This document shows, piece after piece, positions 47,560-63,431 of a DNA stretch of 64,000 nucleotides. The DNA comes from Ferrimonas kyonanensis DSM 18153 (GTDB taxonomy: Bacteria > Pseudomonadota > Gammaproteobacteria > Enterobacterales > Shewanellaceae). The position numbers and the translations under genes are program-made. Each line of letters begins with the position of its first letter. Position 1 is the first letter of the stretch. The notes beneath the pieces are model-generated. The model saw nothing but the letters and a program-made list of their open reading frames with translations. It did no database searches and was not told the origin of the DNA. The stretch is taken from NCBI RefSeq assembly GCF_000425405.1, contig NZ_AUDJ01000028.1, positions 1-64,000 of the forward strand, read 5' to 3'.

Positions 47560-49068
47560 TCAAGCGCTCTGACGCTGGGCCCACTTCATGGCACTGATCA
47601 TCAGTACCGTACAACCGCCGATGGAGGCAATCAGCCACTGGAAACCGTTGATGCTCGCCACCGACGCCACCTGTTGCTGCAGGGCCTGGCCGATCAGCGC
47701 CGCACTGTGGCCTCCCACGGCCTGCTGCAGCTGCAACGACTGCTGAACAAAGGCATCACTGCGGCTGCTGAGGTGCCCCGCCATTACCAGGCTGGCGTTG
47801 GCGGCATCAAACGCCTGCAAGCGGGAAAACTCGACACTGGCCAGCAAGGATCCCAGGTTTCTGAACAGGTAAAACCAAGCAATGGCCTCCACCAGCTGTG
47901 CCTTGGGCATCCGCCGCAGAATATGAATGGTCACGGTGACATTGAGAATGCCCACCGCCACCCCTTTGAGCAACATCGCCGGCCACAGGTCGCTGCGGCC
48001 ACTGTCCGGGCTAACCCCGGTCAGTATCGAGCAGGCAATCACCATCAACAGCACGCCTAAGGGAATCACCTTCTCCGGCTTACCGCCTTCCGTGGTGGTG
48101 ACCTTAATCGCCAGCATCAGCCCCAGCAACATGCCATAGAAACTGATCCGCTCAAGCTGCCCCAGTTGGGCGTGGCTGTACCCCAGCACTCCGGTCACAA
48201 ACCCCGAGGTCAACATGGTTGCTGCCATTACCACAAACCCGGCCACCGCACCGTTGACCATTCCGACCCGGGCATTGGGCACCCGCAAAATGCTTGGACG
48301 CAGATACTCGCCCCGGCCCCAACCTCGGCGCAGCGCCAGCACTACGCCTGCGCCCAGCAGCGCCGTCACCACCGCCAGCACCACCCAGTCGGGATCGCGA
48401 AACCAGTTGTAGCGTTCCCCCTTCATCAGCAGTACCGTCAGCGCCACAATAAAGCCGCTCAACAACCCGGCCTGCAGCAGGTTCAATCGAATGCGTTGAC
48501 GCGTATCCGGCCAGGGCCAGGGGCCAAAACGCACCCAGTACAACACCGCCGCGTAGGGAATCCACTGCAGCGCAAAGGCCCAGCGCCATCCGCCCGCCTC
48601 CGCCAACAGCCCCATCAACAACGGGTACAGCCCCATGGGCACTAACACAAACAGCAGCAGCATCACCGCTTCGGCCTTGGCGATGCGGACAAAATCCAGG
48701 TTGGTCATCACCAGTCGGTGTGCCAGCACCACCATCACGCTGGCGCACACCCCGTGGCCCAGCCAGGCGACGTACTGCCACAACGGCGCCTCGACCAGCA
48801 CGCTGATCAGCGCACAACCCAGCCCCAGCGCCGCCGCCGAGCGCAACAGGCGCCGGTTACCCAAGCGATAGGCCGCCCAGCTGGCCAGGGGCAGCGCCAG
48901 CAGTTGGCCAACCATAAACAGCACATTGAACCAACTGGCCTCATCCAGCGACAGCCCCAGGGCGCCGGCGATGTCGGCGGCGCCGCTGCTGTAGATTGCC
49001 GATGCCAACCCTTGCGGGATCAGCATCAGCAGCGCCAGTGGCAGCAATGGCCAGATTCGGTTACTCAT
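47560..49068 (-). CDS. DHA2-type MFS drug-efflux transporter (EmrB-like)
   Basis: Proton-driven exporter of about 502 residues with about 14 transmembrane helices. It has the family opening (DIAGALGLSLDEASWFNVLFMVGQLLALPLASWAAYRLGNRR). It works with the adaptor encoded just upstream and an outer-membrane channel not found here. Its start overlaps the end of the adaptor gene by 8 bp, showing co-translation. The substrate is unknown. Confidence 0.85.
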   Translation of the reverse strand: MSNRIWPLLPLALLMLIPQGLASAIYSSGAADIAGALGLSLDEASWFNVLFMVGQLLALPLASWAAYRLGNRRLLRSAAALGLGCALISVLVEAPLWQYVAWLGHGVCASVMVVLAHRLVMTNLDFVRIAKAEAVMLLLFVLVPMGLYPLLMGLLAEAGGWRWAFALQWIPYAAVLYWVRFGPWPWPDTRQRIRLNLLQAGLLSGFIVALTVLLMKGERYNWFRDPDWVVLAVVTALLGAGVVLALRRGWGRGEYLRPSILRVPNARVGMVNGAVAGFVVMAATMLTSGFVTGVLGYSHAQLGQLERISFYGMLLGLMLAIKVTTTEGGKPEKVIPLGVLLMVIACSILTGVSPDSGRSDLWPAMLLKGVAVGILNVTVTIHILRRMPKAQLVEAIAWFYLFRNLGSLLASVEFSRLQAFDAANASLVMAGHLSSRSDAFVQQSLQLQQAVGGHSAALIGQALQQQVASVASINGFQWLIASIGGCTVLMISAMKWAQRQSA

Positions 49069-50086
49069 GGCGGGCATCCACGGCCACTACCGCCGACAGC
49101 CCCGGCACCACCCGTCCCCGCAGCACCTCGGGCAAGCTCAGGGCAATCTTCACCGGCACCCGCTGCACCACTTTGACAAAATTGCCGGTGGCGTTGTCCG
49201 GCGGCATCATGCTGAACTGAGCCCCGGTGGCCGGCGCCATGCTGAGCACCCGGCCCTCGATGGGGTGATCGGGAAAGCCATCCACCTCCACCAGTACCGC
49301 TTGCCGAGGTTTCAGCCGGGCAATCTCGCCCTCTTTAAAGTTGGCTTCTACCCATACCTGGTCGGTAGGCACAATGGACAGCAGCGGCGTACCTGCCGCC
49401 ACCAGTCGCCCCTGGCGCACGGCGCGGTTACCCACCACCCCGGCCACCGGTGCCCGAATGTCGGTGTCTTCCAGGTTCAGCTGCGCCAACGCCAGCTCCG
49501 ACTCCGCCTGAATCCGTCGCGCCTGCAGCAACTTCAGCTGACTGCGAGCCGTCGCCAGCGCCTGGCGGGCCCCCTCCAGCTTGAGCTTGGACGAGGTCAA
49601 CGCCAGCTCGGCCCGCTCCATGCGGGTTTTCTGGCCGTCATGAGTCGATTTCGACGCCAGGTTGTCCCGCAACAGGTTCGATAATCGCTGCCACTCCACC
49701 CGCTGATAACGCGCATCGGTGGCGGCAGAGTCGATGGCCGTTTCGGCTTCCTTGACGGCAATGATCTGCATCTCGATCTGCTGCCGGGCACTAACAATGC
49801 TCGCCTCTACCTCCGCCAATGACCCGGCCGCCTTGTCCTTCAGCGCCAGGTAGTTACGCTTATCCAGCTGCGCCAGCAAGGTGCCAGCCTCCACCCACTG
49901 GTTGTCGGTCACCAGCACCCGGGTCACCACTCCCGCCACCTCGGCGCTGACCGGCGTAATCTCGCCCTGCACGTAGGCGTTATCGGTTTCAATCCAGCCT
50001 TGCCGCGGCGCCAGATAGAGGTACAATCCGCTGATGACCAGCACCAGAGTCAGCGCCACCAGGACTTTCTTTTTTCCACTGTTCAT
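49061..50086 (-). CDS. HlyD/EmrA-family membrane-fusion protein
   Basis: Periplasmic adaptor of about 341 residues with a single N-terminal anchor (KKVLVALTLVLVISGLYLYLA), a lipoyl/barrel-sandwich half (TDNAYVQGEITPVSAEVAGVVTRVLV), a long alpha-helical hairpin, and the second half (TDIRAPVAGVVGNRAVRQGRLVAAGTPLLSIVP). The start at MNSGKK is preferred; ATGs three and further codons upstream are also in frame and none has a strong ribosome site. It is divergent from the tetR gene and probably repressed by it. Confidence 0.85.
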   Translation of the reverse strand: MNSGKKKVLVALTLVLVISGLYLYLAPRQGWIETDNAYVQGEITPVSAEVAGVVTRVLVTDNQWVEAGTLLAQLDKRNYLALKDKAAGSLAEVEASIVSARQQIEMQIIAVKEAETAIDSAATDARYQRVEWQRLSNLLRDNLASKSTHDGQKTRMERAELALTSSKLKLEGARQALATARSQLKLLQARRIQAESELALAQLNLEDTDIRAPVAGVVGNRAVRQGRLVAAGTPLLSIVPTDQVWVEANFKEGEIARLKPRQAVLVEVDGFPDHPIEGRVLSMAPATGAQFSMMPPDNATGNFVKVVQRVPVKIALSLPEVLRGRVVPGLSAVVAVDARHE

Positions 50087-50199
50087 AGACACAACCATTG
50101 AAGAATCAACCACCATCAGCATCCAGATGTCTGCAAACCCGCCACGGCAACGCCTCGTCAAAGCCCACTGTCGTTTGGTCTGGTTCAACAGTCATTAAG

Positions 50200-50218
50200 A
50201 TACTGTACTGTACAGTAT
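50200..50218. promoter_or_regulatory. Palindromic operator between efflux genes and tetR
   Basis: Perfect 19-bp palindrome ATACTGTAC-T-GTACAGTAT, centred about 74 bp before tetR and 123 bp before the adaptor start. A second, weaker dyad GTACT-N4-AGTAC (50266-50279) overlaps the tetR ribosome site. The position and symmetry fit the binding site of the adjacent TetR regulator controlling both directions. Confidence 0.75.
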
Positions 50219-50282
50219 CATATTTGAGTAGTAAGATGGATTTCAAGCCCTACCAGGCAAAAACTGTACTGAGGAGTACCAT

Positions 50283-50879
50283 ATGCGCCCTTCCAGCCTG
50301 AAAAAGAAGCAGAATTATTTGGATGTCGCCACCGAGCTGTTTCTGCAACAGGGCTTCGACGCCACCGGGCTGGACCAGTTGATCGAGCGCTGCGGTGGCT
50401 CCAAGCTGACCCTGTACAACTATTTCGGTGACAAACGCGGCCTGCTGAAAGAGGTGGTGACCCGGCTGACCGGCGAACTGCAGACCATCCTGGCCGTAGA
50501 TTCGGATCTCAGCCACAGCACCGAGCAACAGCTGCAGCACTTCTGCCGCAGCTACACCAGCTTCGTCTATCACCCAAAAACCATGGGCCTGTTTCGGCTG
50601 ATGATTGCCCAAAGCAAACAGGATCAGGAGCTGGTGGAGTTCTTTCTGGATCGCGGCCCACGCCGGGCACTGGCCACCCTGGAACAGTTACTGGTGCAAC
50701 TGGTGGCCGATGGCCAGCTGCAATTGGACGATCCACACAACAGCGCCGAGCAGCTGCTGGGGGCACTGCGGGGCTCCCGTTACTTCGAGGCCCTGCTGAC
50801 GCCGCTGCCCTCGGATTCCGCTCAGTTGCAGCGCTACGCCGATACCGCGGTGGCCACCTTCCTGAAAAGCTGCCGCTAA
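50283..50879 (+). CDS. TetR-family repressor of the efflux pair
   Basis: Regulator of 198 residues. The N-terminal TetR helix-turn-helix reads ATELFLQQGFDATGLDQLIERCGGSKLTLYNYFGDKRGLLKEVV. The C-terminal ligand domain (about 75-195) is helical and includes the AefR-like FRLMIAQSKQDQELVEFFLDRGPRRALATLEQLL. It is divergent from the EmrAB-like genes and very likely represses them and itself through the nearby palindrome. Confidence 0.88.
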   Translation: MRPSSLKKKQNYLDVATELFLQQGFDATGLDQLIERCGGSKLTLYNYFGDKRGLLKEVVTRLTGELQTILAVDSDLSHSTEQQLQHFCRSYTSFVYHPKTMGLFRLMIAQSKQDQELVEFFLDRGPRRALATLEQLLVQLVADGQLQLDDPHNSAEQLLGALRGSRYFEALLTPLPSDSAQLQRYADTAVATFLKSCR

Positions 50880-50938
50880 AGCAACCTGGGCCACAATGAG
50901 GTACTCTTTTAAAGACAGAGAGAGAAAAGGACACCTCA

Positions 50939-51577
50939 ATGCCCTCAGCCGCCGAAGGCCTGGCCTGGGTACTGTGGATCTGGCTGACGCTGCACTGCCT
51001 GATCCGTGGCAACCTGTGGCAGGCCATTAGAGAACACGACTACGTCTTGCACCTGACCCTGGGGTTCGTCGTTGGCCTCAGCGGCTTATGGCAGTTGCGA
51101 GCCGGAATCTACGACGGCCTGGAGCTGCACTTTGTCGCCCTCACCGTCACCACCCTGGTGTTCGGCTGGCGTAATGCCATCGTGGTCGGCAGCCTGGCTC
51201 TGTTGGCCAGTGTCGGCCTGGGCAGCGAGCCCTGGCAGGGCGCTGGCGCCGTTGGCCTGCTGGGGGTGGCTGCGCCCATCGGCCTCAGTTTCGCCATCCT
51301 GACCCTGAGCCACAACACCCTGCCCCGCAACCTGTGGATCTACATCTTCGTCGATGGCTTTTTCAATGGCATTGTCTGCTTCGTGGCTCGCACCCTGTTG
51401 CTGGCCAGCTGGTTCAGCTTTGACTACGACTGGACCATTATTCGGGACAACTATTTGATTCTGATGCCGCTGTTTTTCTTCCCCGAGGCCATGCTCAATG
51501 GCTTCAGCACCACCCTGTTGGTGGTTCACAAGCCCCATTGGCTGGCGACCTGGCGCGAAGAGCAATACCTTAAATAG
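50939..51577 (+). CDS. CbiM-like energy-coupling-factor membrane protein
   Basis: Inner-membrane protein of 212 residues with about six transmembrane helices, resembling the CbiM-type substrate-binding component of ECF metal transporters (FVGLSGLWQLRAGIYDGLELHFVALTVTTLVFGWRNAIV, GVAAPIGLSFAILTLSHNTLPRNLWIYIFVDGFFNGI). The usual ECF ATPase and T component are not adjacent, and the classical N-terminal Met-His metal motif is absent. It is therefore an orphan of uncertain function. It starts behind AAAAGGACAC and converges with luxI 4 bp away. Confidence 0.7.
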   Translation: MPSAAEGLAWVLWIWLTLHCLIRGNLWQAIREHDYVLHLTLGFVVGLSGLWQLRAGIYDGLELHFVALTVTTLVFGWRNAIVVGSLALLASVGLGSEPWQGAGAVGLLGVAAPIGLSFAILTLSHNTLPRNLWIYIFVDGFFNGIVCFVARTLLLASWFSFDYDWTIIRDNYLILMPLFFFPEAMLNGFSTTLLVVHKPHWLATWREEQYLK

Positions 51578-51581
51578 CCCC

Positions 51582-52169
51582 TTAGCTGGCCAGTTGTACG
51601 TTGAGGCTGTCGTCCACCTCCACCCACAGCGCCACCGAGCGCTCAATGCCGATCTGCAGCGATTTGCCGGCCCCCATGCGGCGGGTTTTCACCCCCAGCA
51701 AACGCAGGATTCGTTCACAGGCCACGGTGGTCACCAACACATAGTGCTTAATGTCGTTATCGATGGCGAAATCGTAGAACGACTTTACCAGCGCGGCGGT
51801 GGAGTGATTCACCAGGCCGCGGCCCTTCTCACCGTCGCCCTTGCGCACGGTAAAACGGCTGATCTCCCACACCTTCTCCTGCTGTGGCGCCGCTTCGCCC
51901 TGCAGCAACTCCGGAAACACGTCCTTCAACATGTACTGGCCCTGGGTCGGCAGCGCGCGCCAGCAGCCGATGACGCTGTCGTTATGATCGGTCATGGCGA
52001 TGTGCGACACCTGCAGCGCATCGAAGTTGTCGGTTTCCAGGCCGTCCTCACAACTGACCTCCCAACCAAGGCGCTGCTTAAAGGTCTCATTTCTAAGCTT
52101 AAAGACCTGATTCAACAGCTCAGGGTTGGCAGGAGAAGTGTGTGGGTTGATCACAGTAATGTTGGACAT
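51582..52169 (-). CDS. luxI: Acyl-homoserine-lactone synthase, LuxI family
   Basis: Makes the quorum-sensing signal from S-adenosylmethionine and an acyl donor. In 195 residues all the classical invariant positions are present: R26, F30, W36, E45, D47, D50, R71, F85, E102 and R105, each one off from LuxI numbering. Core motifs are GCWRALPT and WEISRFTV. The start at MSNITV is preceded by AAGGTGAG; a longer frame upstream crosses the promoter and lux-box-like sites. It is divergent from the RibD-like operon, and its partner regulator is probably the LuxR encoded 6 kb away. Confidence 0.92.
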   Translation of the reverse strand: MSNITVINPHTSPANPELLNQVFKLRNETFKQRLGWEVSCEDGLETDNFDALQVSHIAMTDHNDSVIGCWRALPTQGQYMLKDVFPELLQGEAAPQQEKVWEISRFTVRKGDGEKGRGLVNHSTAALVKSFYDFAIDNDIKHYVLVTTVACERILRLLGVKTRRMGAGKSLQIGIERSVALWVEVDDSLNVQLAS

Positions 52170-52233
52170 GTTGCTCACCTTTTCGGAATCGAAATCGTGA
52201 GCAAAAATTAAGAAATTCCCCGCCTCGGCATAA

Positions 52234-52249
52234 CTGTCAGTTGTGCCCA
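52234..52249. promoter_or_regulatory. Degenerate lux-box-like half-site
   Basis: CTGTCA followed by GTTG and a decayed right arm. It adjoins the better site at 52249-52264. Suggestive only. Confidence 0.35.
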
Positions 52250-52264
52250 TGTCAGATCTGACAG
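52249..52264. promoter_or_regulatory. Lux-box-like dyad on the luxI side
   Basis: ATGTCAGATCTGACAG contains a perfect 14-bp palindrome TGTCAGATCTGACA. It is of the form NTGTCA-N4-TGACAN seen in LuxR-type operators, and lies about 80 bp before the luxI start codon. An AT-rich candidate -10 lies nearer luxI. Confidence 0.65.
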
Positions 52265-52375
52265 GTGGTCGCCAGCGCCGTCGTCCCTTACCTTTACCGC
52301 CGTCACTGATGCACCGTCGCGCCCCCCCGCCAAACCGAGCATTGACGCGGATCGGGACGACAGCAATCAGCCCTA

Positions 52376-52391
52376 CTGTCACAACTGACAG
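52376..52391. promoter_or_regulatory. Lux-box-like dyad on the RibD-like operon side
   Basis: CTGTCACAACTGACAG, perfect six-bp arms around four bases, sharing the arms of the luxI-side site. With a candidate -10 TAGTCT at 52416-52421, the centre would be near -44, the classic place for LuxR activation. The start codon of the RibD-like gene is 62 bp further on. Confidence 0.65.
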
Positions 52392-52453
52392 CTAACCCGG
52401 CACGGCACTTCGGGCTAGTCTGAACCCAATCACTGATATGGACGACGTTTGCC

Positions 52454-53377
52454 ATGACTGCACAGGCCCACCACGCACAGCACACTCAACACAGCGCCCT
52501 GCCCGGCGAACTGTTGTTTACCCTGGATAAGGCTCAGCACCTGTCCCGGCGTTCCGGCTGGGCCTGGTCCCTGACCCGCAACAACCGCCGCATCGGCTCT
52601 GGCTCCGGCATGTTTGGCTACCCGGTGTCATCGCTGCTGCACGCGGCAGTGCAGGAGCAGGCCGACGCCCTGTACCTGTCGACGCCGCCACACGACGGCT
52701 TCATCACCCTGGGCGAGCTGTTACCCAGCCTGAAAGCGGCCAACATTCGTGAGCTCAACATCCCCAGCATTAATTGCCCGTGGTGGGTGTTTGGCCAACA
52801 ACAGAAACAGGCGTCGGATCACGGCATCACCATCAACCGTTTTCCGGTCAAAGACATCGGCAACCAGATCTATTACGGCCCCTACACCCTGGCCACTCAG
52901 GGTCGCCCCTGGGTGGTCGCGGTCTGCGCCACCACCCTGGGTGGCGGCGATCACCCACTGGCGGCGTTCGATGGCGAGTTCGGCCACAACCAACGCATTC
53001 GCCAGCGGGTGCTGAGCAGCCACGCCCTGGCCAGCGATCTGGCCGACGCCACCCAGGCCTACGCCGGCCTGCGTAACGCCGCCGGCAGTGAACTGTCGTT
53101 GCAGCAATTCGATGGTGCCGAGGCCTTTGCCCGGTTGCTGCTGCAACAGGCACAGATGCAGCTGCCGACGCTGGTGGTGATCACCAACCAGAGCCGCTGC
53201 CAGCAGCTGATTCAACGGGGCTGGGTGGACGAACTGCTGCTCAGTTGCCAGCTGATCGACAGCCAACCCAGTCATCAGGCCCTGGCGCCGCTGACCAGCC
53301 TCAGCGGCTGGCAGATGAGCGACTGCCACTTGTTAAGCAACGGCGTGCAGCTGGAACTGCTGCGCAAGCCTTACTGA
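52454..53377 (+). CDS. Degenerate RibD-like protein (deaminase-reductase scaffold without zinc motif)
   Basis: Protein of 307 residues with the apparent two-part layout of riboflavin-synthesis RibD. The first 125 residues follow the deaminase part (ALYLSTPPHDGFITLGELLPSLKAANIRELNIP...HGITINRFP). The rest follows the reductase part (RPWVVAVCATTLGG, then PTLVVITNQSRCQQLIQRGWVDELLLSCQLI). The HAE and PC-x8-C zinc ligands of active deaminases are missing, so deamination is unlikely. It is the first gene of an operon with a membrane-fusion protein and ABC exporter, next to luxI and a lux-box-like site. The function is unknown. The RibD relationship is my alignment by eye and needs profile comparison. 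Confidence 0.6.
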   Translation: MTAQAHHAQHTQHSALPGELLFTLDKAQHLSRRSGWAWSLTRNNRRIGSGSGMFGYPVSSLLHAAVQEQADALYLSTPPHDGFITLGELLPSLKAANIRELNIPSINCPWWVFGQQQKQASDHGITINRFPVKDIGNQIYYGPYTLATQGRPWVVAVCATTLGGGDHPLAAFDGEFGHNQRIRQRVLSSHALASDLADATQAYAGLRNAAGSELSLQQFDGAEAFARLLLQQAQMQLPTLVVITNQSRCQQLIQRGWVDELLLSCQLIDSQPSHQALAPLTSLSGWQMSDCHLLSNGVQLELLRKPY

Positions 53378-53406
53378 TTATCACCTGAAGGAACAGGAGC
53401 CCTCTC

Positions 53407-54663
53407 ATGGACAGAAAAATCACCCCGAGCCGCGGCCCGGCCATCAAAAACGCCGTCATCGCCACCCTGTTGGGGCTGGTGCTGGCCTCGGCGGCCTACG
53501 CCCTCAGCCATGGCGACAGCGACCGCGTGCAGCAGCGAGTCGACAGCGCCACCCTGATGGTCACTACCGTTCAAGCCGGTGCCTTTGAGGACACCTTGCG
53601 ACTGCGTGGCAGCATCAAGCCGAAAACCAGCATCTACCTGGATGCCATCAGCGGTGGCCGGGTGGAGCAAAAGCTGGTGGAACAGGGGGAGTTTGTCACC
53701 GAGGGCCAGCCGCTGGTGAAGCTGTCCAACAGCGCCCTGCAGCTGGACGTCATCAGCCGCGAGGCACAGATCACCGAGCAGCTCAACTTCCTGCGCAACA
53801 CCCAGATGACCATGGAAACCAACAAGCTCAACCTGAAACGGGATCTGCTGGAGATTGAACACCAGATCAACCAATTGCAGCGCAAGGTTAAACAGGCCAT
53901 TGCCCTGGAGAAGCGCGACCTGATCCCCAAGGACGACCTGCTCAACCTGCAGCAGGATCTGAGCTACTACCAGAAACGCCGCCAGCTGACCCAAGAGCGC
54001 CAGCAGGCGGAAAACCTGATTCGCCAGGCGCAGATCACCCAGTTGGAGGACAGCGCCAAGATGCTGGACACCAACCTGGCCTTTGCCCGTCAGAACCTGG
54101 ACAACCTGCTGGTGAAAGCACCGGTGTCCGGCTACCTCAGCGACCTGGACGTGGTGGTGGGCGAGTCCAAGACCAAGGGCGCCCGTCTCGGCCAAATTGA
54201 CCTGCCCGGCGAGTACAAGCTGGCAGTGGAGGTGGACGAGTACTACCTCAGCCAGGTGCAACTGGGCATGGCCGCCAAGGTGCGGGTCAACGGCCGGCTG
54301 ATCGACGCCATCACCACCAAGATCGACAGCCGGGTCAACGCCTCTCGCTTCACCGTGGAGATTGACCTGCCCGGCGACCTGGCCGGCATCAAACGTGGCC
54401 AGAGCCTGGACGTGGATCTGGTGCTGAGCAGCCCTCAGGACAACGCGGTGCTGCTGAACAAGGGCGCCTTCGTTAACGACAGCGGCGGCCACTGGGCCTT
54501 TGTGCTGTCGAGCGACGGCCACCAGGCCCACCGCACCGCCATTCGCCTGGGCAAGAAAAACGCCACCGTGTTTCAGGTGCTGGAGGGGCTCAAACCCGGC
54601 GACCGGGTGATCACCTCCAGCTATTCAAGCTTCGACAACGCCGACGAACTGCTACTCAACTAA
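53407..54663 (+). CDS. Membrane-fusion (HlyD/MacA-type) adaptor of an ABC exporter
   Basis: Periplasmic adaptor of 418 residues. An N-terminal anchor (NAVIATLLGLVLASAAYAL) is followed by a barrel-sandwich half (LRGSIKPKTSIYLDAISGGRVEQKLVEQGEFVTEGQPLVKLS), a long coiled-coil hairpin (about 120-235), the second lipoyl half (VKAPVSGYLSDLDVVVGE), and C-terminal beta domains. It lies between the RibD-like gene and the ABC ATPase in one direction, with gaps of about 20-30 bp, so it is part of the same operon. Confidence 0.88.
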   Translation: MDRKITPSRGPAIKNAVIATLLGLVLASAAYALSHGDSDRVQQRVDSATLMVTTVQAGAFEDTLRLRGSIKPKTSIYLDAISGGRVEQKLVEQGEFVTEGQPLVKLSNSALQLDVISREAQITEQLNFLRNTQMTMETNKLNLKRDLLEIEHQINQLQRKVKQAIALEKRDLIPKDDLLNLQQDLSYYQKRRQLTQERQQAENLIRQAQITQLEDSAKMLDTNLAFARQNLDNLLVKAPVSGYLSDLDVVVGESKTKGARLGQIDLPGEYKLAVEVDEYYLSQVQLGMAAKVRVNGRLIDAITTKIDSRVNASRFTVEIDLPGDLAGIKRGQSLDVDLVLSSPQDNAVLLNKGAFVNDSGGHWAFVLSSDGHQAHRTAIRLGKKNATVFQVLEGLKPGDRVITSSYSSFDNADELLLN

Positions 54664-54685
54664 TCAATAAAAAAGGAATTTTGTC

Positions 54686-55387
54686 ATGATTACCCTGACC
54701 GGCATTCATAAAGCCTTTCGCACCCACGACATCGAAACTGTGGCCCTGGACGCCCTGGATCTGACCGTGGCCCCCGGCGATTTTGTCTCCATCATGGGGC
54801 CGTCCGGCTGCGGCAAGTCGACCCTGCTGTCGATCATCGGCATGCTCGACCATCCCGATGCCGGCCAGTACCGCTTCGACGGTGAGCAGATTGAGGGCTT
54901 TTCCGAGCGGCAATTGGCCAGCCTGCGCAGCCGCTGCCTCGGCTACATCTTTCAGAGCTTCAACCTGGTAGATGACCTGACCGTGGCCCAGAACGTCGAG
55001 CTGCCGCTGCTGTACAACAAGGTCGCCAAGGCCGAACGACGCCAGCGGGTGGCAGCCATTCTGGACCAGCTCAACATCGGCCACCGCGCCGGTCACCTGC
55101 CGCAGCAGCTGTCCGGTGGTCAGCAGCAGCGGGTAGCCATCGCCCGGGCGCTGGTGATCAACCCCAAGCTGATTCTGGCGGACGAGCCCACCGGCAACCT
55201 GGACTCGGAAAACGGCCTCGAGGTGATGCGATTGCTGACCGAACTCAACCGCAAAGGCACCACCATCGTGATGGTGACCCACTCCCGCCGCGACGCCGAC
55301 TACGGCAACCGCATCATTGAACTGCTGGACGGCAAGGTGGTCGACGGCGACCAGGGCCAGCCATTGAAGGAGGTGCAGTGTGCTTAA
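54686..55387 (+). CDS. ABC transporter ATPase (MacB/LolD type)
   Basis: Nucleotide-binding subunit of 233 residues. Walker [13 protein letters not shown] (about 36-47), Q-loop [11 protein letters not shown], signature [15 protein letters not shown], Walker [13 protein letters not shown] and switch His in VMVTHS are all present. It energises the FtsX-type permease encoded next, which it overlaps by 8 bp. Confidence 0.93.
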
Positions 55388-57797
55388 CCAGTATCTGATC
55401 ACCGCCTATCGCGCCATGCTGCGGCAGAAAAGCCACAGCCTGCTGAACATTCTCGGCCTGGCCGTGGGCCTGGGCGCCGCCATTCTCATCGCCCTGTTTG
55501 TCAGCTATCAGCTGTCCTTCGATCGCTTTTTGCCCCATGCCGACAACACCTATCGGCTGCAGCAGCACTGGCCCTCCATGGGCATGCAGGCACCGCTGGT
55601 CAGCTCCGCCTTTAACACCGAGCTGAATAACGTTGCCGCGGTAGAACAGGTGTTTAACCTGATGGACCTGTCGCAGAAAGTCGACCCCAAGGTGGAGCAC
55701 ATCGGCCAGCAGTTGCAGCTGGGCACCCTGTTTGCCGCCAGCAGCAACCTGACCGAGCTGCTGCCGCTGACTACCCTGGCCGGCGACCTGCAACGGGCGC
55801 TGACCGAACCGGATCAACTGGCGCTGTCCAGTGACGAGGCCCGGCGCCTGTTTGGCCACACCGAGGTGGTGGGCGCCACCTTGCAGGGTAAAGCGCAGCG
55901 CTGGACCATCGCCGCGGTGTTTGAAACGCTGCCGGACAACAGCCACTTCGCCTTCGACCTGCTCACCGCCGCCAACCCGGCGCTGATCGGCACCCCCTCC
56001 ATGGGCCACAACAACAGCTACACCTACCTGCGTACCCGCCCCGCTGCCGACACCGAGCGTCTGGCAATGGATCTGACCGCCCTGTACGACGCCCTGGCCT
56101 ATGGCGGTAAAAACATGGTCACCATGGAGCTGCAGGCCATTACCGACATTCACCTGGACGCCGAGTCTCAGTTTGAGATGAAGACCAACGGCTCACGCTT
56201 TGTGGTCACCGTCTGCACCGGCCTCAGCCTGCTGCTGGTGGCCATCGCCCTGATCAACTTCGTCAACATGAGCACCGCCCAGGCCGGGCGCCGTGCCCGC
56301 GAAGTGGGTGTGAAGAAAGCACTGGGGGCCAGCCAGCCACAACTGGTGAGCCAGTTTCTGTTTGAGTCGACCCAGCTGGCACTGGTGGCGGTATTGCTGG
56401 CCACCGGCCTGGTGCAACTGGCCCTGCCCTGGTTCAACGCCCTGGTGGAAGCGCCACTGGCACTGACTGCCAGCCCGTCGCACCTGCTGGCCCTGGCGGG
56501 ACTGACCCTGGGCATGGGCATCAGTGCCGGCCTGTATCCGGCGCTGTTTCTGTCGTCGTTCAGCGCTAAGCGAGTGCTCAGTGGCGACCTGCAGCGCGGC
56601 AAGACCGCCATTGTGGTTCGTAAGTCGTTACTGACCCTGCAGGCGGCGCTGTCCATCGGTTTGATTGTGGCAGCGGTGGTGCTGTTCCAGCAGCTGGCGT
56701 TTCTCAAATCCCAGCCGGTAGGCTACGAGCGCAGCCAACGACTGGAGGTGAGCGGCCTGCCTAAAGCGGCGCTGTTTGATCACGCCGACACCGCCCTGGT
56801 GCAGCGCATCGACGCCTTGCCGGGCATCAGCAACGTCAGCTTTGCCGACGCCTCACTGACCGCCACCACCAACACCTCCACCAAGTTGCTGTGGCCCGGT
56901 GCCAGCGCCGATGCACCGTTTCTGCCCTTCGTCGGCAGCGGCTACGGCATCGTTGAGGCCCAGGGGCTGACGCTGCTGGCCGGGCGCGACTTCGACAGCC
57001 GCTTTGGCGCCGACTGGTACCACCAGCAGGACGACGGCCGCGGCTTTGCCAGCATCATCATCACCGAGTCCATCGCCACCATGGCCGGACTGGGCAGCCC
57101 CGAGCAGGCCATCGGCAAGATCTGGCGCTTTAAGACCGGTCGCGGCGCCGACGCCGAGTTCCCGGTGAAGATCGTCGGCGTGGTGGCCGACATTCAGGTG
57201 GGCTCGGCCCGAGAGAGCCGCTCGCCACTGCTGTTCATCTGTGGCTACAGCTGGGTGTCGCAGGCCAACCTGATCGTCACCGCCACCCAGGGGCCGATCA
57301 ATCTGGCCATCGGCACCCTCAAAGGCGAACTGCAACAACTGCTGCCACAGCAGGATCTGACCGTCACCGTGGTCGAAGAGAACTACCGCGCCCTCTACCG
57401 CCAAGATGAGCGGGTGGCCACCCTGGTGCTGATCTTCTGCGCCCTGGCGGTGTTTCTGACCTGCATCGGCATCTTCGGCCTCTCCTCCTACAGCGCCCAG
57501 AGCCGCCGCAAGGAACTGGCGATTCGCAAGGTGCTGGGAGCCTCCCGCCTGGATCTGGTTAACCTGTTAGCCAAAGAGTATGTGCTGCTGCTGGGGATCA
57601 GCGTGCTGGTGGCGGTACCCGCCGCCCACCTATTGCTGCAACAGTGGCTAAGCGGCTTTAACGACCGCATCACTCCATCGCCACTGCTGTACCTGGCCGC
57701 CACCGCCCTGGTGTGCGCCATCACCTGGCTGACCGTGGCCTCCCACGGCCTGCGCAGCGCCAGCGCCCGCCCGGCGGGGGTGCTCAAGGCCGAGTAA
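55380..57797 (+). CDS. FtsX/MacB-type ABC permease with two repeats
   Basis: Inner-membrane permease of 805 residues. It has two copies of a module with an extracytoplasmic MacB-like domain and FtsX helices. The first module begins MLRQKSHSLLNILGLAVGLGAAILIALFVSY and reaches the FtsX part at ARREVGVKKALGASQPQLVSQFL. The second ends with FGLSSYSAQSRRKELAIRKVLGASRLDLVNLLAKEY. It starts with GTG inside the ATPase gene. Family members export peptides, lipids or small molecules in tripartite pumps. The substrate here is unknown, perhaps the product of the quorum-sensing cassette. Confidence 0.88.
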   Translation: MLNQYLITAYRAMLRQKSHSLLNILGLAVGLGAAILIALFVSYQLSFDRFLPHADNTYRLQQHWPSMGMQAPLVSSAFNTELNNVAAVEQVFNLMDLSQKVDPKVEHIGQQLQLGTLFAASSNLTELLPLTTLAGDLQRALTEPDQLALSSDEARRLFGHTEVVGATLQGKAQRWTIAAVFETLPDNSHFAFDLLTAANPALIGTPSMGHNNSYTYLRTRPAADTERLAMDLTALYDALAYGGKNMVTMELQAITDIHLDAESQFEMKTNGSRFVVTVCTGLSLLLVAIALINFVNMSTAQAGRRAREVGVKKALGASQPQLVSQFLFESTQLALVAVLLATGLVQLALPWFNALVEAPLALTASPSHLLALAGLTLGMGISAGLYPALFLSSFSAKRVLSGDLQRGKTAIVVRKSLLTLQAALSIGLIVAAVVLFQQLAFLKSQPVGYERSQRLEVSGLPKAALFDHADTALVQRIDALPGISNVSFADASLTATTNTSTKLLWPGASADAPFLPFVGSGYGIVEAQGLTLLAGRDFDSRFGADWYHQQDDGRGFASIIITESIATMAGLGSPEQAIGKIWRFKTGRGADAEFPVKIVGVVADIQVGSARESRSPLLFICGYSWVSQANLIVTATQGPINLAIGTLKGELQQLLPQQDLTVTVVEENYRALYRQDERVATLVLIFCALAVFLTCIGIFGLSSYSAQSRRKELAIRKVLGASRLDLVNLLAKEYVLLLGISVLVAVPAAHLLLQQWLSGFNDRITPSPLLYLAATALVCAITWLTVASHGLRSASARPAGVLKAE

Positions 57798-58059
57798 TGC
57801 CCCCGGCCTCTTCGGTTCCCTTGCCGAAGAGGCCGGCCCAGTGCCGCCCACCGCAACACGCCATTCGCGCCAATCTCTCACACGCTCGATCAGCATCTGC
57901 CCACAGCGTGCATGGCCAGCGCCTCGCGTCGGTTCAAACCAATGCCTTACAGCACCTATAAGCAATTGTTTTTCAATGCATTAGCCGCTTGAGCTTTTGC
58001 CGTAAGGGCAGTAGATTAGAGGGTGATATTCACTCAAAAAGCTCAGGAACAACACTGCC

Positions 58060-58797
58060 ATGGACGGTAAGGTTTTCTCCCAAATCGTACAGAATCTGGA
58101 GCTGCTCAACTCCGCCGATCAGCTCAAAACAGCCTGTGAAGAGTTCTGCCAGCTGGTGGACATTCCCTATTACCTGATGGGGGTGGTGTCTCAGGATTCC
58201 CTCTACTCACCGAAGATGAGTGTGCTCAGCAACTACCCGGAAGCGTGGCTCAAACCCTACTTCGAGCAGGAGAAGCACAAGAGCGATCCGGTGGTGGCCT
58301 ACATGATGACCAAGCACGCACCGGTGCAGTGGAGCCAGCTGATTCAGCAGAGCCAGTTCAGCGATCCGAAAAACCAGGCACTGATGATCGAAGCCCGAGA
58401 ACACGGGCTGGAGAACGGCCTCAGCATTCCCATTCGCTCCACCTCCGGCGAGTTTGCGGTATTCAGCCTGGCGGTGGACGACGGCAGCGAGGCCGGCAGC
58501 GACAAGCTCAACCAGGTGCTGCCCTTCGCCCACACCTTCGGGGTAAACCTGTTTGAGCGCCAGTTGAGCCTGATTGAGTCGGAAACCCTGGAGGCCAAGC
58601 TCACCGCCCGCGAGAAGGAGTGTCTGTTCTGGGCCTGCGAGGGCAAAACCGCTTGGGAGATCTCGCAGATCATCGACATTACCGAGCGCACGGTGCTGTT
58701 CCATCTGAACAACTCCACCAAGAAGCTCGGTGCCACCAACCGTCAGCACGCGGTCGCCCTGGCGATGCGTTACGGGCTGATCACCCCCAACGTCTAA
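58060..58797 (+). CDS. luxR: LuxR-family quorum-sensing regulator
   Basis: Transcription factor of 245 residues. The autoinducer-binding domain (about 20-165) keeps the signature positions W63, Y67, D76, P77 and W91. The C-terminal helix-turn-helix is LTAREKECLFWACEGKTAWEISQIIDITERTVLFHLNNSTKKLGATNRQHAVALA. The conserved acyl-lactone pocket indicates a true signal receptor rather than a ligand-free LuxR protein. It lies 262 bp after the permease gene and probably reads the signal made by LuxI, acting on the dyads near luxI. Confidence 0.92.
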   Translation: MDGKVFSQIVQNLELLNSADQLKTACEEFCQLVDIPYYLMGVVSQDSLYSPKMSVLSNYPEAWLKPYFEQEKHKSDPVVAYMMTKHAPVQWSQLIQQSQFSDPKNQALMIEAREHGLENGLSIPIRSTSGEFAVFSLAVDDGSEAGSDKLNQVLPFAHTFGVNLFERQLSLIESETLEAKLTAREKECLFWACEGKTAWEISQIIDITERTVLFHLNNSTKKLGATNRQHAVALAMRYGLITPNV

Positions 58798-58815
58798 GCG
58801 CAAGGAAACGTTCCG

Positions 58816-59046
58816 ATGCAGTGTTCCTGTGGCATCGCCCTCAACCTGTCGCTGTTCCGTAGCCACGACGACCAGCCGTTAAAGAGCTGCCCCAAGTGCT
58901 CGATGCAACAGGGCAGGCACGTATTCTATCCGGAAACCCTGTTTGGTTGGCGCCAGCTCAAAGGCCAGTCGCAACTGCAATCCTGGTGCCCCGCCTGCCG
59001 CTCCAAGCGCACCCCGGAGCAACCCGCCACTGCCCGTTGTGGGTGA
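58816..59046 (+). CDS. Small Cys-rich (zinc-ribbon-like) protein downstream of luxR
   Basis: Protein of 76 residues with Cys pairs CSC, CPKC and CPAC, suggesting a zinc-binding fold. An AAGGAA ribosome site precedes the ATG at good spacing, and only 18 bp separate it from luxR, so the two are probably co-transcribed. I do not recognise the family. The composition matches luxR, so it belongs to the cassette rather than to the phage debris to the right. Confidence 0.6.
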   Translation: MQCSCGIALNLSLFRSHDDQPLKSCPKCSMQQGRHVFYPETLFGWRQLKGQSQLQSWCPACRSKRTPEQPATARCG

Positions 59047-59992: not shown

Positions 59993-60919
59993 ATGAACTT
60001 ATCACAAAATATAAAAAGTAAAATATCTGTCGAGAAGCCTGATTTTTCCAAGTGTATCGACGTCATAGAGCATACACATACCATCTCTGGAATAGAGGCA
60101 AACATTAGACTTCATCACTTAAAATTTGATGGCAATAAAATGCCAATGGTCAAAGCTCTTGCCGACACACTATATCTATACATTATCGATTATTGTCTAT
60201 CCGCAAAGAACCGAAATGAGCCTCTTACTCCAAGGCAGTCTACTCAGCTAACAAAAGAAGCGCGAAGATTATTTAGGCACCCAGAAATAACCGACACATC
60301 ACCAGATAAAACAGGGGAAGCTGGTGAAACCCTATTATACTTTTTGATGGAAGCAGTTTTGGAAGCACCACAGATGGTGTCCAAAATGGAACTTAAGACG
60401 AATCACAGGGATGAAGTTAAAGGTTCAGATGGTATCCATGCGAAGTGGAATGAAGACTTAGAAATGGTTGACTTCTTTTTCGGTGAATCAAAATTATATA
60501 AGAATGTAAACGGTGCAATTACAGACGCAATAAAGAGTGTGGACAATTTTCATGAAATAAAAATGTATGAACACGAATTTTCAATGGTTACCAAACATTT
60601 TAAGTATGCCGACGATTATGTAAAAGAAGAAATCTCTAACTTGTTTGTAAACGGTAATCCAGGTCCAAATGTAAGATTAAATCATGCCTGCCTAATTGGA
60701 TATGATTATGGTGGATATATTAGTATTTTTGATCAAAGCCATAAAAACCTCGTTTCAAAATTCACAGATTCACTCCTCACTGACTTTCAAAAAATTGTAC
60801 CCACACTCCAAAAAAAGTTTGATTCTTTTAATAAAAAGCACCTAGCATTCGATATATTCTTTCTTCCTTTCCCATCAGTTGTTGAATTTAGAAACGCATT
60901 TAATGAGGCCTTAGACTAA
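59993..60919 (+). CDS. hamA: HamA, DUF1837 nuclease of a Hachiman anti-phage system
   Basis: Protein of 308 residues with a PD-(D/E)XK-type nuclease site: upstream GEAGETLLYFLMEAVL (E112), D146 in KGSDGIH, and E165-S-K167 in FFGESK. In Hachiman systems HamA is held inactive by the helicase HamB and degrades DNA when activated by phage. The gene is far more AT-rich than the chromosome and is separated from hamB by one base. This makes it a two-gene defence operon of foreign origin. Confidence 0.85.
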   Translation: MNLSQNIKSKISVEKPDFSKCIDVIEHTHTISGIEANIRLHHLKFDGNKMPMVKALADTLYLYIIDYCLSAKNRNEPLTPRQSTQLTKEARRLFRHPEITDTSPDKTGEAGETLLYFLMEAVLEAPQMVSKMELKTNHRDEVKGSDGIHAKWNEDLEMVDFFFGESKLYKNVNGAITDAIKSVDNFHEIKMYEHEFSMVTKHFKYADDYVKEEISNLFVNGNPGPNVRLNHACLIGYDYGGYISIFDQSHKNLVSKFTDSLLTDFQKIVPTLQKKFDSFNKKHLAFDIFFLPFPSVVEFRNAFNEALD

Positions 60920-60920
60920 C

Positions 60921-63431
60921 ATGAGCGATATATTAAATCTCATAAACACTCTCGAAAAGGCCAGCATACAAGAACAGCTCCCTGGTGAAGCTGTTGGAGC
61001 AAAATCTAGCTATAGTGAATTAGATATATCTCGGCTTATAGGCTATGCGTCTCTACTTTCTTTATCCGATGAACCAGATGAAAAAATGTTGTCGTATGAA
61101 ATTATAACAAGACTTTTGGAGGTGTCCGGAGGACAAGATAAGAAAGTTATTACATCGGCAGAAATCATTCTATCTAGATTAGGAAACTTCCCAGGGAGAT
61201 CACTTCTTAGAGAGAGATATGGAAAATTAACCAGTGAAATATCCAACTTCCTTAGGCTTGAATGTATATCTAGAGAAGTAGAAAACTCTGTCTTTCTGAA
61301 CAATGACTCCTCTGCTCAACTAACTGATTTTCAGCATAATCTTTATAGCTCATTAAATAGAGAAAGAGCGATAAGTGTTTCTGCACCGACATCAGCAGGA
61401 AAGTCTTTTGTGCTGAGTTTAAATATCATCCGAAAGCTAGCAAAAGCAACAAATCAGTGTATTGTTTACATAGTGCCAACTAGAGCACTAATAACGGAAG
61501 TGTCAAATAGAATAAGAATGTCACTCCGAGAGCATGATTTGGAAAAAGTTGTAGTAAGAACGGCCCCGTTCCCAATATCTATTGAACTTCTAGAAGATGG
61601 GGTAATATATGTTCTCACACAAGAAAGATTAACCAACTACTTAAACACTGAAGAGGAAATGCCAGCAATTACCTCTTTAGTTATTGATGAAGCACACGAA
61701 ATACAAAAAGGAAAAAGAGGGATAATACTTCAAAATGCAGTTGATTTAGCTTTAAAAAAACACCCTAGTGCAGAAGTTTTATTTGCCAGCCCGCTGATAA
61801 GAAATCCGGGATACTTCCTCAACTTATTCAACATCGTCGATAAAGGCAAGTTTTTTACTGAAACAGTCTCTCCTGTTTCGCAGAATATACTACTTGTTTC
61901 TGAGATAAAAGGTAAACCAACTCAAGTCAATATCGAATCACTAAGCACAAACAACAAACTAGATATTGGAATTAGAAATTTACCATTTAGGTTTCGAGGA
62001 AACAAAACTCTACAAAAAGCAAACTTTGCAAAATCCTTGCGAAAAACCAGCGAGTCTGTAATTATTTTCTCAAATGGACCAGCTGACTCCGAAAAAGTTG
62101 CATCATCATTAGCTGACATAAATGATGATTTTGAGCCAAGTGAAAAGCTAATAGCATTCATCGAGTTTCTAAAGAGAGAAATCCATCCAGAATATTCCCT
62201 TATTCATTGCTTAAATGGAGGTGTTGGATTCCATTACGGAAAAATGCCTTCAATAGTTAGAAACGGTATAGAAAACTTGTTTAAGAATGGGGACATTCAA
62301 TTCCTTTGTTGTACCAGTACTCTTTTGCAGGGAGTAAACCTTCCTGCAAAGCACATCATCATTGAAAATCCAAAATCTGGAACTCAACCGATGTCAAGGG
62401 CCGACTTTCAAAACTTATCAGGTAGAGCAGGAAGGTTGTTAAAGGAGTTTCACGGAAATATTTGGTGTATACGCCCTGGAGAGTGGGATGAAAAAAACTA
62501 CGAAGGAGACAGGCTACAAGAGATTACTGCTGCAATAGACAAGGTTATGATTGATGGAGGGGTAGAAATCCGCTCCCTCATTGAAGAGTCCCTTATTAAT
62601 GACAAACGAATAGATGTGGCCGAGGCAGCATTCGGGAAAATATACAATGATATCAACCAAGGAGAAGGAGAAATACTGGAGAGGTATCGAACAGAAGACA
62701 ATTCTGAAGAGTTAGATAAAACCATATCAACGATAAAAGAAATAAATATATCAATCCCAAAAGAAATACTAAAAAGAAATAGCTCTGTTAGACCAGATCA
62801 TCTTCAGTCTCTTTATGATTACTTGTATACAAAAAAGTCACTAGATGATCTAACTCCTGAATCTCCCTTCAAAAAAGGAGCAAAGGCAAAGCTGGATAAA
62901 ATACTAGACATATTTGCCACCACCTTCAATTGGGATGCGAACCCAAACTACAGAAGATTAATTAGCCGGACAGCTCATGACTGGATGTGGGGGAAGCCAT
63001 TAGGTGAACTAATATCTTCTAGAGTGTCATATGTAAAACGCAATGACAGCAAGGCTAAAACACCAATTATCATTAGAGATTTTCTTGACGTTGTCGAGTT
63101 TCAGGTTAGATTCAAATTAGTGCAATACTTTTCCGCCTACATTGATATTCTTCGACACATTTATATATGCCAAAAAGGTATTGATGCAGATCTTGAACCG
63201 TACCATATATATCTAGAATTTGGATCTTGTGACAGAACAACACTGAACATAATGGCCACAGGCCTATCTAGGTTTACAGCCTTGCATTTGTCAAAGCCCC
63301 TTTCTAACTATGGGGGGATAACTGATATTGACGATGCTTACAGGAAGATAAAAGAGTTAAATGTGAATCGCCTAAATATTCCTCACATATGTAAGCAGGA
63401 AATTCACGACCTTACAGGAAGTAGTGCATAA
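60921..63431 (+). CDS. hamB: HamB, superfamily 2 helicase of a Hachiman anti-phage system
   Basis: DNA helicase/translocase of 836 residues. Motif I is APTSAGKS (155-162), motif II DEAH (256-259) in VIDEAHEIQ, then the Ski2-like STLLQGVNLPAKHIIIENP and motif VI QNLSGRAGR. The C-terminal 300 residues are family-specific. It senses damaged or phage DNA and releases HamA. AT-rich throughout; followed by a hairpin. Confidence 0.88.
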   Translation: MSDILNLINTLEKASIQEQLPGEAVGAKSSYSELDISRLIGYASLLSLSDEPDEKMLSYEIITRLLEVSGGQDKKVITSAEIILSRLGNFPGRSLLRERYGKLTSEISNFLRLECISREVENSVFLNNDSSAQLTDFQHNLYSSLNRERAISVSAPTSAGKSFVLSLNIIRKLAKATNQCIVYIVPTRALITEVSNRIRMSLREHDLEKVVVRTAPFPISIELLEDGVIYVLTQERLTNYLNTEEEMPAITSLVIDEAHEIQKGKRGIILQNAVDLALKKHPSAEVLFASPLIRNPGYFLNLFNIVDKGKFFTETVSPVSQNILLVSEIKGKPTQVNIESLSTNNKLDIGIRNLPFRFRGNKTLQKANFAKSLRKTSESVIIFSNGPADSEKVASSLADINDDFEPSEKLIAFIEFLKREIHPEYSLIHCLNGGVGFHYGKMPSIVRNGIENLFKNGDIQFLCCTSTLLQGVNLPAKHIIIENPKSGTQPMSRADFQNLSGRAGRLLKEFHGNIWCIRPGEWDEKNYEGDRLQEITAAIDKVMIDGGVEIRSLIEESLINDKRIDVAEAAFGKIYNDINQGEGEILERYRTEDNSEELDKTISTIKEINISIPKEILKRNSSVRPDHLQSLYDYLYTKKSLDDLTPESPFKKGAKAKLDKILDIFATTFNWDANPNYRRLISRTAHDWMWGKPLGELISSRVSYVKRNDSKAKTPIIIRDFLDVVEFQVRFKLVQYFSAYIDILRHIYICQKGIDADLEPYHIYLEFGSCDRTTLNIMATGLSRFTALHLSKPLSNYGGITDIDDAYRKIKELNVNRLNIPHICKQEIHDLTGSSA

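Follow-up and report, generated by a model that had tools for sequence, protein, structure and literature searches.

We find that the 64,000-nt stretch of DNA analysed here (the window; bases 1–64000 of contig NZ_AUDJ01000028.1 in the 4.93-Mb genome of Ferrimonas kyonanensis DSM 18153) carries an acyl-homoserine lactone (AHL) quorum-sensing module in which luxI and luxR enclose a RibD-like gene, and that this module is likely to control a class III (labionin-type) lanthipeptide cluster. The cluster, which is the main cargo, lies just outside the window and hence beyond the initial annotation, which had read luxI, a RibD-like gene, a tripartite exporter, luxR and a small Cys-rich gene as one density-controlled cassette. 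All seven open reading frames (ORFs) of that reading, namely luxI, the RibD-like gene, the membrane-fusion protein (MFP), ATP-binding cassette (ABC) and permease genes of the exporter, luxR and the Cys-rich gene, are present at the coordinates and belong to the families then given (Table 1). Control by the lux genes is well supported by the sequence, and from their arrangement we infer an action of the RibD-like protein on the circuit.

The LuxI and LuxR Pfam domains score above their cut-offs at one locus, which holds the single LuxI of the genome, and the same pairing is found in five genomes. Homologues occur in identical order (luxI, RibD-like, MFP, ABC, permease, luxR) in Shewanella sp. 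SR44-3, so the arrangement is beyond chance. Relatives were drawn from samples rather than from all genomes: 152 of the family, 394 of the order, 369 of the class and 398 of the phylum. In the family sample a LuxI profile gave 13 matches in 12 genomes. The top five (E <= 4.1e-73; SR44-3, the window, S. salipaludis, G854 and G833) are the five intact cases with a RibD-like gene between luxI and luxR (5/5). Surrounding three of the eight weaker matches (G863, G807 and G852) there is no RibD-like gene, and luxR is present in G863 and G807. A RibD-like profile run against the same 152 genomes returned these five loci and one weak match in G838, which means that genomes whose LuxI matches are all of the weaker kind have no RibD-like gene; no intact copy was found away from luxI/luxR in this sample. 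The G838 match (E 1e-3, containing stops) has no cassette gene nearby and was discarded as chance or a relic. The order sample yielded three matches, all of them cassettes. Besides the window, the class and phylum samples gave four and nine weak matches, respectively; 13 of 13 have intact HAE and PCxH...PPC motifs and were set aside as real RibDs. There was no match in plasmids and none confirmed in viral contigs. Scanning genome contigs with two short LuxI patterns picked out seven loci, of which the two from Shewanella are already-known cassettes; the other five have no RibD-like gene, two of them (L015 and L016) being on short or cut contig stretches.

Across the five loci pairwise identity is 48–82% for LuxI, 40–81% for LuxR and 18–51% for the RibD-like protein, and the three sets of values correlate (r 0.94–0.98, 10 pairs), as would be expected if the three genes travel together with the RibD-like gene evolving fastest. 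The MFP/ABC/permease trio is present in two of the five loci (the window and SR44-3). The stable core is luxI–RibD-like–luxR, and the exporter trio is optional.

The link between this core and its putative targets is made by lux boxes, which were sought with the pattern CTGTCANNNNTGACAG and controlled with the reversed pattern genome-wide and with first-order Markov resampling (3000 sequences) of upstream or intergenic DNA. At no more than one mismatch the window genome has 11 palindromic sites, compared with six for the reversed pattern. Four of the 11 lie on the window contig. Boxes A (52249) and B (52376) sit in the luxI/RibD-like intergenic region, and two more in tandem, at 69807 and 69847, stand before the lanthipeptide precursor genes, 5.8 kb beyond the end of the window; the other seven of the 11 are at control level. 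Box B is the sole site in the genome without a mismatch, and 0 of 3000 resampled intergenic sequences equal it. A box within one mismatch stands between luxI and the RibD-like gene in all five loci, equalled in each by 0–1 of 3000 Markov-resampled sequences. Boxes also precede the precursor arrays in 3/3 lux-linked loci, with one mismatch in SR44-3 and two in G854, and these matches are equalled by 3, 0 and 17 of 3000 resampled sequences in the window genome, SR44-3 and G854, respectively. The initial annotation had LuxI and LuxR controlling the divergent operon, which appears very probable given boxes of zero and one mismatch here and a box at 5/5 loci.

Behind the tandem boxes lie six precursor ORFs, a LanKC synthetase and an ABC exporter. 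LanKC with RamC_N, kinase and LANC_like domains is encoded in all three lux-linked loci, and the precursor copies number six in the window genome, eight in SR44-3 and four in G854, sharing a leader LxLQx(L/F) and a core SxxSxxC, the spacing of which we take to be that of labionin. The cores of the two Shewanella arrays (L071 and L034, from SR44-3 and G854) read WSTISNHC, as compared with WSTFSVNC in the window genome. WSTISNHC has a His between the ring residues, and passages of one study describe LanKC enzymes that crosslink His (PMC10206099). In SR44-3 and G854 luxR is followed directly by the convergent ABC/LanKC genes, at distances of ~90 and ~160 bp. In the window copy 5.5 kb separate luxR from the lanthipeptide genes, and this interval holds hamA/hamB together with two short ORFs resembling integrase remnants (63611–64204, minus strand). 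The Hachiman defence pair is not part of the module. It looks complete; direct repeats around the island were short, imperfect pairs only, and no insertion ends are proposed. A candidate precursor gene inside the window was dropped after the array was found past its edge. Full-length LanKC is present in four of the 152 family genomes (the window genome, SR44-3, G854 and G812), and in G867 a frame of 352 aa matches RamC_N weakly. The window genome has a second short RamC_N-like match on another contig (C22, 37687–38007; 45.5 bits) with no LanKC neighbours, and the only cassette-type neighbour seen there is one weak LuxR-domain match.

The RibD-like protein of the window has no Pfam or NCBIfam match on its own, and a Pfam scan of all five members to E=10 gave only CadC_C1 and RibD_C, in one member each, with RibD_C at 0.2. 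Nevertheless, the label given to it initially was right. hhalign matches the five-member profile over its full length to 11 housekeeping RibDs (288 columns, probability 98.6, E 6.8e-16); the profile also finds RibD chains of the PDB (best E 0.0088) and, in other genomes, real RibDs (the 13 weak matches above); and the top Foldseek PDB match of an AlphaFold model (pLDDT 74.6, pTM 0.70, five sequences) is E. coli RibD (E 9.2e-13, TM 0.46, rmsd 11.5), the last two values indicating that domain placement in the model differs or is uncertain. When the five RibD-like proteins are aligned together with 16 housekeeping RibDs, the HAE motif, the zinc cysteines (PCxH...PPC), the LDG(K/R) stretch and the cofactor loop are seen in the 16 and in none of the five. 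We take the first two to be the deaminase site and the last two to be the reductase site. The proteins are 306–323 aa long, and each of the five cassette genomes encodes a normal RibD, above the family cut-off, elsewhere. The RibD-like protein is thus very probably a full-length RibD relative that is a pseudoenzyme on both counts and not a riboflavin enzyme. It had been described as dead or repurposed: the dead appearance is borne out by the loss of both active sites, and repurposing as a modulator is what we infer from its position.

What, then, does such a protein do? We suggest that a riboflavin enzyme, its activities lost, was taken over as a built-in quorum-sensing modulator, which travels with one LuxI/LuxR lineage only, is controlled by a lux box, and forms with luxI and luxR a portable switch of three genes to which unrelated biosynthetic clusters have become connected (lanthipeptide in three genomes, polyketide-type in one); on this proposal as a whole our confidence is evenly balanced. 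In the window and in SR44-3 the exporter operon begins with the RibD-like gene, whose product could instead be an enzyme that tailors the exported compound, or an accessory protein to it, with luxI and luxR flanking the gene by chance. This is unlikely, as all five copies have lost the catalytic features of both sites, the gene stays with luxI/luxR while the product changes (lanthipeptide at three loci, polyketide-type in G833, neither recognised in S. salipaludis), and G812 has LanKC and no RibD-like gene. A remaining activity on the signal, for example reduction or binding of the AHL acyl chain by the reductase-like domain, would agree with the tracking of luxI by the gene and with a C-terminal half that, in the model, appears to keep a RibD/DHFR-like fold. 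We find this the more doubtful of the two, because the catalytic and cofactor-binding stretches of the reductase are changed or missing in five of five copies; furthermore the P. fluorescens gene mupX, which likewise has luxI and luxR on either side and whose product degrades AHL, encodes an amidase-hydrolase according to passages of PMC3386692; this is no relative of RibD.

The exporter trio has a wider distribution than the core. Its permease was found at E <= 1e-30 in at least nine of the 152 family genomes (at least 10 loci), a search in which at most six candidates were scored per genome, so that some exporters may be missed. Two of these loci are lux cassettes, one (G812) is beside LanKC without lux genes, and seven are beside two-component-like genes, labelled as NtrC-like response regulators and histidine kinases from the starts of the ORFs rather than from a domain scan. 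In all seven stand-alone copies (L098–L104) the trio adjoins an apparent pair of this kind, and it is perhaps an envelope-stress or peptide-sensing pump there. All four genomes with full-length LanKC have the exporter, compared with at least five of the other 148 (hypergeometric ~6e-6, calculated by hand, uncorrected for kinship and not independent of the clustering); counting G867 as a LanKC genome makes it four of five. The two share a cluster in three of the four. This co-occurrence favours a role of the trio in lanthipeptide export or immunity, and a general envelope pump is also possible. Alternatively, the trio could be a pump for multidrug efflux or envelope stress that has nothing in common with the cluster except the lux promoter. 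The seven loci in which an apparent response regulator and sensor kinase adjoin the trio, with neither lux genes nor LanKC along the stretch, would fit this, but with the exporter in 4/4 LanKC genomes and in the same cluster in 3/4 we consider it rather doubtful.

The same distribution bears on the proposal that the five genes make up a self-contained cassette. Two genomes do share the exact order luxI, RibD-like, MFP, ABC, permease, luxR, but three of the five luxI–RibD-like–luxR loci are without the exporter, and the exporter occurs in eight loci with no luxI or luxR nearby (seven two-component-like, one with LanKC), so that a single unit of this kind is highly improbable. The co-occurrence of the genes in relatives, which had been put forward as a check on the cassette, therefore gives a divided answer: the exporter comes apart from luxI/luxR, and the RibD-like gene, as far as intact copies in the 152 family genomes go, does not.

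Two of the five core loci have other neighbours. In G833 the core adjoins a polyketide-type operon (encoding KAS III and an acyltransferase/carrier protein, among other enzymes) that starts at 242909 on the minus strand, with boxes at 242973 (two mismatches) and 243033 (one mismatch). At the S. salipaludis locus the core is accompanied by genes for two DUF6895 proteins (L006, 5546–8390), which are possibly part of a lux-controlled pathway. Conversely, the Shewanella-genus genome G812 (contig 3994402–4006113) has LanKC, an ABC exporter, the MFP/ABC/permease trio and an apparent sensor/response-regulator pair, all without luxI; between its exporter and LanKC genes lies a candidate precursor gene (leader LALQVL, core SMLSLAC).

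Several observations weigh against the picture of a lux core driving a lanthipeptide cluster with its own exporter. The G812 locus implies that such clusters need no lux control. Lanthipeptide genes are present in G854, but there the exporter lies elsewhere in the genome, beside two-component-like genes, and in six genomes the exporter adjoins genes of that type and may be a general envelope pump. No precursor, LanKC or target operon was recognised at the S. salipaludis locus, where a DUF6895 gene contains one of the boxes (L006, 5881), and in G833 a divergent gene at 243089 (plus strand) shares the promoter region and could equally own the boxes. The identity correlation is computed from non-independent pairs, and the cassette is known from five genomes only. 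As for the boxes, none was found before luxR (best 4–5 mismatches in the three loci tried). The window has five pattern matches at no more than two mismatches where 2.72 are expected, and 12 of 100 shuffles reach five, which makes the motif informative by place and not by number. Genome-wide counts against control were 15/7 in SR44-3, 23/9 in S. salipaludis, 24/13 in G833 and 14/16 in G854, where the count is thus not above the control and the precursor box has two mismatches. On these counts the motif does not discriminate by itself, and in G854 it does so least; it is the position relative to the genes that carries the argument.

Weighing these points, we still favor control of the lanthipeptide cluster by the luxI–RibD-like–luxR module, which could work as follows. 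LuxI would make an acyl-homoserine lactone, and AHL-bound LuxR would act at boxes A and B to raise luxI and the RibD-like–exporter operon, and at 69807 and 69847 to drive the six precursors, LanKC and the ABC exporter. LanKC may then form labionin or lanthionine rings at the SxxSxxC core, and the ABC protein could move the peptide across the inner membrane, from where the MFP/ABC/ADOP trio, as a MacB-like pump, would expel it from the periplasm or protect the producer. The RibD-like protein, with both active sites lost, probably binds a protein or a ligand to tune LuxI/LuxR, as RsaL and RsaM do from the same position. If this is true, AHL quorum sensing is linked directly to class III lanthipeptides in Gram-negative bacteria, it can be predicted when and how a silent peptide cluster is switched on, and a dead metabolic enzyme represents a new kind of protein among the few built-in quorum-sensing modulators. 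The same three genes stand beside differing clusters, so that mining genomes of the Shewanella family for them could also bring silent natural products to light.

The features of the locus are collected in Table 1. A search of the loci of the four relatives gave no counterpart of the Cys-rich gene at E <= 1e-3, and the gene is probably outside the conserved module. An unannotated homologue with 47% identity occurs in an Aeromonas caviae record (L107, 2980–3225), for which reason the protein probably represents a real small family. To the left of luxI (47560–51577) are genes for an apparent major facilitator superfamily pump, an EmrA-like adaptor, a TetR-family regulator and a 212-aa membrane protein weakly similar to CbiM.

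Table 1. Features of the lux locus and the adjoining lanthipeptide genes in F. kyonanensis DSM 18153 (contig coordinates; positions above 64000 are beyond the window).
Feature	Position	Strand	Basis or remark
luxI, AHL synthase, 195 aa	51582..52169	-	ATG start read at 52169; Pfam Autoind_synth 2.7e-31
lux box A, ATGTCAGATCTGACAG, luxI side	52249..52264		1 mismatch to CTGTCANNNNTGACAG
lux box B, CTGTCACAACTGACAG	52376..52391		0 mismatches; centre ~70 bp 5' of RibD-like start
RibD-like, predicted double pseudoenzyme, 307 aa	52454..53377	+	hhalign to RibD, predicted fold, active-site residues lost, luxI/luxR context
MFP of tripartite exporter, DarC-like	53407..54663	+	HlyD_3 3e-12; NCBIfam DarC 8.9e-60, below cut-off
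ABC ATPase, DarD/MacB/LolD type	54686..55387	+	ABC_tran 1.6e-34; NCBIfam DarD 6e-86, below cut-off
ADOP/MacB-type permease, 805 aa	55380..57797	+	FtsX and MacB_PCD, 2 stretches each; NCBIfam ADOP 5.7e-73, below cut-off
luxR, AHL-binding regulator, 245 aa	58060..58797	+	Autoind_bind 8.8e-31, GerE 1.6e-16
Cys-rich zinc-ribbon-like protein, 76 aa	58816..59046	+	zinc-ribbon matches sub-threshold only
Hachiman hamA and hamB, between luxR and lanthipeptide genes	59993..63431	+	PADLOC HamA 9.2e-126, HamB E=0
ABC exporter	64347-66089	-	beyond window
LanKC synthetase	66065-68728	-	RamC_N 1.2e-55, Pkinase 2.6e-11, LANC_like 3.2e-21
six tandem precursor ORFs, 35–37 aa	68930-69708	-	leader NVLNLQTLAVDSDAELM-like, core WSTFSVNC

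Parts of this system resemble known ones. With the darobactin exporter DarBCD and MacB pumps the trio shares the combination of MFP, ABC ATPase and ADOP/MacB-like permease. DarC and DarD are the best NCBIfam matches of the MFP and ATPase, and DarB is the second for the permease, all at scores below the equivalog cut-offs (DarC 202.5 of 450, DarD 287.4 of 375 and DarB 113.8 of 700 bits), and no darobactin maturase was seen in the operon. The RibD-like protein shares the two-domain fold and a full-length alignment with RibD, the bifunctional riboflavin deaminase/reductase, but differs from it in the loss of both active sites. In its genetic position, a single gene between synthase and receptor that tracks the circuit, it resembles the genes of RsaL, RsaM and mupX circuits. 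Passages of PMC10710839 report RsaM genes as always adjacent to luxI and/or luxR, and in a 1,403-genome survey rsaL or rsaM account for 40 of 48 single genes between luxR and luxI (PMC3386692); Table 2 of that survey names no RibD-like gene and lists five genes of unknown function. RsaM, at 140–170 aa and with its own fold as described in part of PMC10710839, is unlike the 306–323-aa decayed RibD found here, and its family (pfam16245, as named in the same passages) was not matched by any of the five RibD-like members in the Pfam scan to E=10. A further difference from RsaL/RsaM circuits is that the RibD-like gene and luxR are separated by three exporter genes in two of the five loci.

Among the titles and abstract openings listed in our searches of open-licence literature, none was found that describes this lux/RibD-like/lanthipeptide system. 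The broad category is known, since luxR-linked lanthipeptide clusters, in some types together with luxI, have been surveyed before: a passage of a survey of luxR-linked clusters in Proteobacteria includes lanthipeptide clusters among them, and 47% of the clusters encode a LuxI homologue (PMC5872303). In that passage no class III cluster or RibD-like gene is named, and 'shewanella' has 0 occurrences in the main text. The class III chemistry, the precursor arrays and the RibD-like pseudoenzyme, which are not mentioned in the published passages, are apparently new to this category. As Gram-negative marine proteobacterial lanthipeptides, the predicted products are like the thalassomonasins (passages of PMC9860996), and their leaders compare with the LELQEL motif given for the NorA leader in part of PMC10206099. 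In conclusion, the cluster has the hallmarks of known class III lanthipeptide clusters (LanKC/RamC; noursin, SapB), namely a lyase–kinase–cyclase synthetase, an LxLQx(L/F) leader and an SxxSxxC core. Labyrinthopeptin is likewise a class III lanthipeptide. What sets the clusters described here apart from the known ones is their Shewanella-family hosts, the tandem arrays of four to eight similar precursors, and the lux boxes with luxI and luxR adjacent.

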